Part shown: positions 61,207 to 64,000 of the stretch, in pieces | Layout of the letters: every line of letters begins with the position of its first letter | How positions within the stretch are numbered: position 1 is the first letter of the stretch | NCBI RefSeq assembly: GCF_009708215.1 | Contig: NZ_CP046175.1 | Location: 2,232,001-2,296,000 of the forward strand | Origin: Occultella kanbiaonis | GTDB lineage: Bacteria > Actinomycetota > Actinomycetes > Actinomycetales > Beutenbergiaceae | Length of the DNA stretch: 64,000 nt | Reading direction: 5' to 3' | Translations under genes and position numbers: made by a program | Notes under the pieces: generated by a model | What the model saw: only the letters and a program-made list of their open reading frames with translations | The model's database searches: none | What the model was told of the DNA's origin: nothing

Positions 61207-61431
61207 GTTCCACATCCTTCTTGCGATCTCTGGGTCCGTGGGTGCACGAACGCCTGGTGATGCTTGTCACATTCTGTGTGGTCTGATGTCTAGCACACCG
61301 AGATTGCGTTTCGATCACGGGCCCCGCGTGGTCCGGCCCTCCTGGCCCGCACGGGCGCGGGCACCGTGTGCCAGAATCGGCCGGGTGATCCGGCCCGCTG
61401 GTGGAACCCGCGTCCCGCGGCCGTGCATCGT

Positions 61432-61455: not shown

Positions 61456-62877
61456 ATGAGGACTGTTCCGGTCGGGGCGACCGGTCCGGGCCACGACGGC
61501 GGGCCGCCCGGTGGCGCCCACGATGTGTGGCATCGGATCGATGGCGGCCGTTGCCGCACCAAGTCCGACCTGCTCGGTGAGATCGCGCGGGTGCTCGAGT
61601 TCCCGGACTGGTTCGGCCGTAACTGGGATGCCCTCTTCGACTGCCTGCTCGGCCTTGACCGGCTCGGCCCGCAGCGACGTGGGGCGCCGCGCCCGGGGCT
61701 GCCTCACTCCGGACGGCCGGTGGGCACCGGCCGGCACGTGCTCGTGTTCACCGACCCCGAGGCCCTCCTCGTCGACGCCGGGTCCGAGCTCGGCACGTTC
61801 CTCCAGGTGCTCACCGACGCGCGCCTGTACGGCATCGACGCGGCCGTCCTCACGGACGCCCCCGAGCAGTGGCGCGAACGTGCGCGACGGGCGATGTCCG
61901 CGCGCCGTGACAGACTCGGCGACATGGACCGACTGATGCTCCTGGACACCGCGAGCCTGTACTTCCGTGCGTTCTACGGCGTTCCCGACTCGATGACGGC
62001 ACCCGACGGCACCCCGGTGAACGCGGTCCGCGGGCTGCTGGACTTCATCACCCGGCTGGTCGAGCAGTACCGGCCGACCCATCTCGTCTGCTGCTGGGAC
62101 AACGACTGGCGGCCGCAGTGGCGGGTGGACCTGATCCCGTCCTACAAGGCCCATCGGGTCGAGGAGGTCGTCCCCGGCGGCTCGGACGTCGAGGAGGTCC
62201 CGGACCCGCTCCAGGTACAGATCCCGATCATCGTGGCGACCCTCGAGGCACTCGGGATCCGGATCGTCGGCGCGGACGGCTACGAGGCCGATGACGTCAT
62301 CGGCACCCTGGCCACGGACGCGGGCATGCCGGTGGACGTGGTCACCGGGGACCGGGACCTGTTCCAACTCGTCGACGACGGCGCTGCCGGCGGCCCGGTG
62401 CGGGTGCTGTACACCGCGCGCGGGGTGGGCCGGCACGAGGTCCTCACCGACGCCGTCGTGGTCGAGAAGTACGGCGTCCGGCCGGATCAGTACGCCGACT
62501 TCGCGACGATGCGCGGGGACTCCTCTGACGGGCTGCCCGGGGTGGCCGGGGTGGGGGAGAAGACCGCCGCGTCGCTGCTCGCGAGCTTCGGCGACCTGGC
62601 CGGGATCCGGGCCGCCGCCGCCGACCCGGGCACGCCGCTCGCCGCCGGGGTGCGCGCCAAGATCAAGGCCGCGTCGGACTACCTGGACGTGGCGCCGGAG
62701 GTGGTCGCGGTCGCGCGCCGGATCAACCTCGGCGAGGTGGACACCGCGCTGCCCGGGAGCGGGCCGGGCTATCCGGTGCCCCGGGACCCGGCGGCGCTCA
62801 CCGAACTCGTGGACCGGTGGGGCCTCGGCGGGTCGGTGTCCCGGCTGCTGGAGGTGCTCCGGCCCACAGTGTCGTGA
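61456..62877 (+). CDS. Barstar-like domain fused to a 5'-3' exonuclease (FEN/PIN-like)
   Basis: 473 residues read without interruption as two domains. Residues about 24-135 look like barstar, the RNase inhibitor: WHRIDGGRCRTKSDLL, then FPDWFGRNWDALFDCL, in which D58, D62 and C63 match barstar Asp35, Asp39 and Cys40, and LQVLTDARLYG, where D121 is at barstar Glu76. Residues 157-473 form a full 5'-3' exonuclease as in DNA polymerase I: LLDTASLYFRAFYG, IPSYKAHR, GYEADDVIGTLA, VVTGDRDLFQ, and the H3TH segment GDSSDGLPGVAGVGEKTA. The exonuclease alone would start at M157 (61924), preceded by a CAGACT seven bases earlier. So separate internal initiation is possible, but there is no stop between the domains. 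The first start codon is uncertain. No barnase-type toxin gene is adjacent. Confidence 0.78.
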   Translation: MRTVPVGATGPGHDGGPPGGAHDVWHRIDGGRCRTKSDLLGEIARVLEFPDWFGRNWDALFDCLLGLDRLGPQRRGAPRPGLPHSGRPVGTGRHVLVFTDPEALLVDAGSELGTFLQVLTDARLYGIDAAVLTDAPEQWRERARRAMSARRDRLGDMDRLMLLDTASLYFRAFYGVPDSMTAPDGTPVNAVRGLLDFITRLVEQYRPTHLVCCWDNDWRPQWRVDLIPSYKAHRVEEVVPGGSDVEEVPDPLQVQIPIIVATLEALGIRIVGADGYEADDVIGTLATDAGMPVDVVTGDRDLFQLVDDGAAGGPVRVLYTARGVGRHEVLTDAVVVEKYGVRPDQYADFATMRGDSSDGLPGVAGVGEKTAASLLASFGDLAGIRAAAADPGTPLAAGVRAKIKAASDYLDVAPEVVAVARRINLGEVDTALPGSGPGYPVPRDPAALTELVDRWGLGGSVSRLLEVLRPTVS

Positions 62878-62917: not shown

Positions 62918-64000
62918 ATGCTCCCCGAACGCGCCGCCGCACTGAAGCACGCCATCAGCACCCGGGTGGTCGTCGCCGACGGTGCCATGGGCACCATGCT
63001 GCAGGACGCCAACCTGACCCTCGACGACTTCCAGGGACTCGAAGGCTGCAACGAGATCCTGAACGTGACCCGGCCCGACGTCATCGAGTCCGTGCACGAC
63101 GCGTACTACGCCGTCGGCGTGGACTGCGTCGAGACGAACACGTTCGGCGCGAACTGGTCGAACCTCTCCGACTACGACATCGACGACCGGATCTTCGAGC
63201 TCGCCGAGGCCGGCGCCCGGATCGCGCGGCGCAGCGCCGAGAAGAACTCCACCCCCGACCACCCCCGCTGGGTGCTCGGGTCGATGGGTCCCGGCACGAA
63301 GCTGCCGAGTCTTGGGCACACCACCTACGCCCACCTCAGGGACACGTTCGCGCAGCAGGCCGCGGGCCTGATCGCCGGCGGCGCGGACGCGATCCTGGTC
63401 GAGACCAGCCAGGACCTCCTCCAGACGAAGTCCGCCATCAACGGCGCCAAGGCTGCCATGGCCGAGTCGGGCACCGAGTTGCCGATCTTCGCGCAGGTCA
63501 CCGTGGAGACGACGGGCACCATGCTGATGGGGTCGGAGATCGGGGCCGCGCTGACCACCCTGCGCGCCCTCGGCATCGACTCGATCGGGCTGAACTGCGC
63601 CACCGGCCCGGCGGAGATGAGCGAGCACCTGCGCCACCTCGCCCGGCACGCCGACCTGCCGGTCACCTGCATGCCCAACGCCGGACTGCCGGTGCTCGGG
63701 GCGAACGGTGCCTCCTACCCGCTCACCCCCACCGAACTCGGTCTCGCGCACGAACAGTTCGTGACGGAGTTCGGGCTCGGCCTGGTCGGTGGCTGCTGCG
63801 GTACCACCCCCGAGCACCTGGCGGAGGTGGTCCAGCGTGTCGGCGGCCGCCCCGTGGTGGCCCGCTCGCCGGAGCCCGAGCAGGGCGTGGCGAGCCTGTA
63901 CACCCACGTCGACTTCGACCAGGACGCCTCGTTCCTCGCCATCGGCGAGCGCACGAACGCGAACGGGTCCAAGGCGTTCCGGGAGGCGATGCTCGCGGAG
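62918..64000 (+). CDS. metH: Cobalamin-dependent methionine synthase (3' end missing)
   Basis: The frame is open to the last base, giving 361 residues of an expected 1,150-1,250. The visible part is the homocysteine-binding barrel: VVVADGAMGTMLQ, NEILNVTRPDVI, and the zinc cysteines in LNCATGP (C227) and GGCCGTTP (C293, C294). The following FLAIGERTNANGSKAF is the start of the pterin (methyltetrahydrofolate) domain, which distinguishes MetH from stand-alone homocysteine methyltransferases. The B12 and reactivation domains lie beyond the window. Confidence 0.96.
   Translation, partial: MLPERAAALKHAISTRVVVADGAMGTMLQDANLTLDDFQGLEGCNEILNVTRPDVIESVHDAYYAVGVDCVETNTFGANWSNLSDYDIDDRIFELAEAGARIARRSAEKNSTPDHPRWVLGSMGPGTKLPSLGHTTYAHLRDTFAQQAAGLIAGGADAILVETSQDLLQTKSAINGAKAAMAESGTELPIFAQVTVETTGTMLMGSEIGAALTTLRALGIDSIGLNCATGPAEMSEHLRHLARHADLPVTCMPNAGLPVLGANGASYPLTPTELGLAHEQFVTEFGLGLVGGCCGTTPEHLAEVVQRVGGRPVVARSPEPEQGVASLYTHVDFDQDASFLAIGERTNANGSKAFREAMLAE

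Follow-up and report, generated by a model that had tools for sequence, protein, structure and literature searches.

The window analysed here is a stretch of 64,000 nucleotides from Occultella kanbiaonis (contig NZ_CP046175.1, positions 2,232,001 to 2,296,000), near the 3' end of which a single reading frame joins a barstar domain to a flap endonuclease (FEN) domain of the FenA type. The features of this fusion gene are as follows.

61456..62877, + strand: fusion gene, 473 residues (ATG 61456; stop codon ends at 62877; start codon unsettled)
61522..61857, + strand: barstar domain, residues 23-134 (extent of the structural match; Pfam covers 26-123)
61627..61629, + strand: codon D58, corresponding to barstar D35; unchanged in the four species
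61639..61641, + strand: codon D62, corresponding to barstar D39; unchanged in the four species
61651..61737, + strand: strongly basic stretch, residues 66-94 (computed isoelectric point (pI) 12.0; modelled with low confidence, 76-88 below 50)
61816..61818, + strand: codon D121, weakly aligned with the E76 position of barstar; unchanged in the four species
61858..61923, + strand: linker, residues 135-156 (basic; predicted helix 137-155; no stop codon in any of the four species)
61924..62877, + strand: FenA-type 5' flap endonuclease domain, residues 157-473 (317 residues)

The barstar-FEN fusion is almost certainly real and its product is a genuine two-domain protein, in view of the Pfam matches to both parts, a frame free of stop codons in all four Occultella genomes (that of the window counted) and a ratio of non-synonymous to synonymous substitution (dN/dS) well below 1 for the barstar part. 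The initial annotation was right that one uninterrupted frame of 473 residues encodes both domains. (Openness of the frame, which extends 5' as far as GTG 61366, is in itself no evidence for the gene, because this DNA is rich in long open frames; the window holds several others of at least 300 residues.) Pfam Barstar (PF01337) matches residues 26-123 in hmmscan (E 9.8e-18; 64.4 bits against a gathering score of 23.4), and a structural match to the barstar fold spans residues 23-134 of the predicted model. The FEN part matches 5_3_exonuc_N at 159-340 (1.9e-46) and 5_3_exonuc at 341-425 (5.6e-18). Scanning residues 1-156 and 157-473 separately, as that annotation had proposed, returns the same Pfam matches as the whole; NCBIfam models give no match to residues 1-156 and only sub-cut-off matches to the FEN part, models of PolA and 5'-3' exonuclease among them.

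The annotated barstar identity, with both key Asp residues and the adjacent Cys, is borne out in phmmer alignment with PDB chains, which places D58, D62 and C63 on barstar D35, D39 and C40; D58 and D62 form the DxxxD pair of the RNase-binding face. The acidic residue that had been claimed at the Glu76 position is a less firm match: D121 is indeed acidic, but it is placed on E76 only by a weak second phmmer segment, which also puts Y125 on barstar E80. Elsewhere W52 aligns with barstar Y29 and F61 with barstar W38; the positions compared are those that we take to contact barnase. The basic stretch 66-94 is absent or much shorter in other aligned barstars. A complete FEN with its acidic motifs, also claimed at the outset, is likewise present. 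The domain aligns with FenA of Mycobacterium smegmatis (PDB 6c33) at 4.3e-82, and D279, D301 and D358 fall on FenA positions 125, 148 and 208, the Asp sites named in the titles of the mutant structures 6c34, 6c35 and 6c36. D164, E277, D279, D280, D299, D301 and D358 are invariant across 23 aligned rows. (The M. smegmatis protein is termed a flap endonuclease in the available text of PMC11551767.)

Selection was estimated by the NG86 method over six pairs drawn from the four Occultella species, pairs that are not independent of one another. dN/dS is 0.11-0.23 for the barstar domain (residues 23-134), 0-0.33 for the linker (23 codons, 135-157) and 0.04-0.13 for the FEN domain; it is 0.24-1.12 for residues 1-22, which are little constrained. 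The barstar value exceeds the FEN value in each of the six pairs. By this measure the barstar part and linker behave as translated, constrained sequence, and a ribosome making the barstar part would continue into FEN. Comparison of the four genomes indicates that the fusion arose before their species diverged.

Where translation begins is less clear. ATG 61456 is conserved in three species. The protein may instead begin at 61366, 30 codons farther 5', because three species have a start codon there (GTG in two, ATG in O. gossypii). Except in O. glacieicola, the upstream starts lack a clear Shine-Dalgarno sequence. The DNA upstream of the O. glacieicola fusion differs from that of the other three, and a 215-codon open frame (L076:4292-4936), without a Pfam match at 0.01, lies directly 5' of it. 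On the 3' side, the next same-strand gene (window 62918-64000) has a homocysteine S-methyltransferase domain at its start; the corresponding frame in two other Occultella extends over ~1178 codons, as in a MetH-like protein.

Beyond Occultella the two domains are found apart. The whole query is matched in all 24 genomes of the family, and the 20 from outside Occultella include 19 with a stand-alone FenA (55-80% identity); the remaining one, a draft of 89% completeness, yields only a Pol I-type match. No barstar lies within 1.5 kb of FenA at any of these 19 loci. PF01337 occurs in seven of the 24 genomes (the four Occultella, G007, G010 and G022). A search of 396 genomes of the order gave strong barstar-domain matches only in Occultella, the next best being at 4.9e-10. 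A contig scan for relatives, examined for the best 80 of 247, comprises three Occultella (80-97%) and 77 others at 35-69% over the best segment. At 132 non-Occultella barstar loci the frame runs at most 79 residues beyond the match, and no other barstar-FEN fusion was found in the family, order and relative-locus samples searched. These facts agree with the suggestion in the initial annotation that an immunity gene, formerly separate, lost its stop codon, kin barstars and sister-genus FenA being separate proteins.

Many of the kin barstars adjoin a ribonuclease. A barnase-family RNase lies just upstream, in the same orientation, at 58 of the 77 loci, with a spacing of -9 to 192 nt (470 at one); two of the 58 supplied the queries. 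The RNase family PF00545 is present in all 24 genomes chosen from the 77 loci. Among the 27 non-Occultella loci that the family and order searches supplied, 14 likewise have an upstream RNase; two weak barstars (L040, L041) are unmatched in this count. In a tree of 108 barstars Occultella groups with ten others (support 97/87). The tree tool assigns the genus to Ruaniaceae. One of these neighbours, L048, adjoins a divergent RNase. L065 adjoins a barnase-like stretch (1034-1378) that holds a stop codon and may be a decaying RNase gene. Six more (L049, L052, L053, L058, L061, L062), from six genomes of one genus (g48), have no adjoining RNase; each follows uvrB immediately, both genes being on one strand (at about 1150-1950 in barstar orientation; Pfam was run on L049 alone). 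A gene resembling homocysteine S-methyltransferase faces the barstar in L049, L058, L061 and L062 (Pfam run on L061 only). The genomes of L060 and L069 have no RNase at E 0.1. A profile built from 13 rows of the group, those of Occultella among them, detects four more close members (L154-L157) when run against 394 genomes of the class. L155 stands behind an RNase domain that ends a long frame, RHS-like by eye and without a family call, and L157 behind a barnase-like stretch split over two frames. The L156 barstar (about 1430-1953) follows an ATP-dependent DNA ligase gene (3-1328); this type of barstar occurs in one of 22 genomes of its order, and the ligase neighbourhood is not repeated. No RNase was seen at L154, RNase having been sought there and in L156 by tblastn only.

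Searches of Occultella itself with PF00545 and with a tailored profile (built from 15 RNase domains, of which 11 are divergent) revealed no barnase-family RNase, either next to the barstar or elsewhere in the genomes; Ntox21 was not searched for. PF00545 gives nothing over its cut-off or at E 0.1 in any of the four genomes. The tailored profile yields one match of 0.31 in G001 and none at E 1 in the other three Occultella genomes; it does recover G022, from the same family, at 1.3e-16. In the available text of PMC3482391, Imm-Barstar, with its DxxxD motif, is tied to barnase-like toxins and specific to barnase-like nucleases (one table row links it to Ntox21). The self-contained inhibitor-nuclease system that had been considered possible is therefore unsupported, because barstar is specific to barnase-like nucleases, the fused nuclease is a FEN and the searches of the genus yielded no barnase-family RNase.

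The reading that we favour, tentatively and at somewhat short of an even chance, is that the barstar part is an orphan immunity module blocking incoming barnase-fold RNases. A barstar-type immunity domain, kin to RNase-paired ones, would have been fused in frame to the resident FenA at its N-terminus. The FenA half would continue flap and RNA-primer removal, as its family suggests, and the barstar domain, retaining its fold and the two key Asp residues and made together with FenA, would bind and block barnase-fold RNase domains from outside. An outside source is proposed because Occultella appears to have no barnase-fold RNase of its own. Several points weigh against this proposal. The apparent absence is judged by homology only, and sub-cut-off PF00545 matches (E 0.38 and 0.51) do occur in G001 and G002. 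Binding may have changed, given Tyr (Y125) at the E80 position and Trp and Phe at those of Y29 and W38. Several of the nearest tree neighbours, the six behind uvrB among them, are also orphans, which would fit a role outside immunity too.

Docking or regulation is the main rival to orphan immunity, and the other three alternatives are less likely. The barstar domain may have been repurposed, either docking FenA to an RNase or to a replication or repair partner, or restraining an RNase during RNA-primer removal. Selection on both domains and the linker is consistent with this, as are the orphan barstars behind uvrB and the ligase gene, and Bacillus FenA is described in the available text of PMC10191290 as acting on RNA-DNA hybrids, its loss giving a phenotype with an RNase HIII defect. 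We nevertheless consider it unlikely: no partner is known, the uvrB arrangement is that of one genus and perhaps of one event, the ligase arrangement is that of one genome, and the barstar module is not needed for FenA function generally, because FenA stands alone in nearly all other genomes of the family. A broader version, in which a barstar sub-family moved from toxin immunity into DNA repair (FenA fusion, uvrB, ligase), recruiting or restraining an RNase or repair partner, is improbable, its uvrB and ligase neighbours having been noticed post hoc.

That the barstar part is a functionless passenger, the product of a once separate gene whose lost stop codon was tolerated, would accord with its higher dN/dS relative to FEN and with the little-constrained residues 1-22, and its constraint might serve folding alone, sparing FEN; the invariant key Asp residues and a dN/dS that is far below 1 in every pair make this unlikely. 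Slightly less probable still is that the barstar domain, through its acidic face, mimics nucleic acid in cis, covering the DNA-binding face of FEN and tuning its activity. Minus its basic stretch the barstar domain has a computed pI of 4.3 and a charge of about -8, and it is carried on a basic linker; against this, the FEN domain is itself acidic (computed charge about -17), and the fusion model gives no domain arrangement because its barstar part has a pLDDT (predicted local distance difference test score) below 50. We know of no barstar that acts on FEN, which also counts against mimicry. Least credible of all is that only the 317-residue FEN is made, from ATG 61924. M157 is kept in all four species at the position where stand-alone FenA begins, and the poor Shine-Dalgarno context of the upstream starts would agree with this, but ATG 61924 has no Shine-Dalgarno sequence either, and an untranslated frame would not retain a Pfam-level barstar with dN/dS near 0.2. 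This internal start may be used in addition, alongside the fusion.

Should the domain bind an RNase, as orphan immunity would have it, immunity could be carried by a housekeeping gene; should its partner be a repair protein, an inhibitor of toxins has turned into a docking module for repair. The function is directly testable, because each domain has relatives of known structure and assays that are already established, and because the fusion is present in four species. Of the known systems, M. smegmatis FenA (6c33) is a stand-alone chain of 319 residues with no barstar in front, whereas Occultella FenA is barstar-fused. In the barnase-barstar pair (PDB 1brs, 2za4) a small separate barstar accompanies its RNase; the Occultella barstar, in contrast, is fused to FEN, contains a long basic stretch and has no RNase found in its genome. 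Imm-Barstar of polymorphic toxin systems (PMC3482391, available text) shares the DxxxD motif, and the kin L048 and L155 adjoin barnase-like RNase domains, but in Occultella no toxin gene was found in the genus and the barstar is fused to a housekeeping nuclease. Orphan immunity proteins are immunity-type domains without a cognate toxin found, as in Occultella; these are described in a type VI secretion setting, and the available text of PMC10539506 makes no mention of fusion to housekeeping enzymes. Both families are already known. Their joint architecture, new as far as literature and genome searches reach, shows a housekeeping DNA-repair enzyme that has captured an immunity-type domain in nature, in an arrangement that is conserved.
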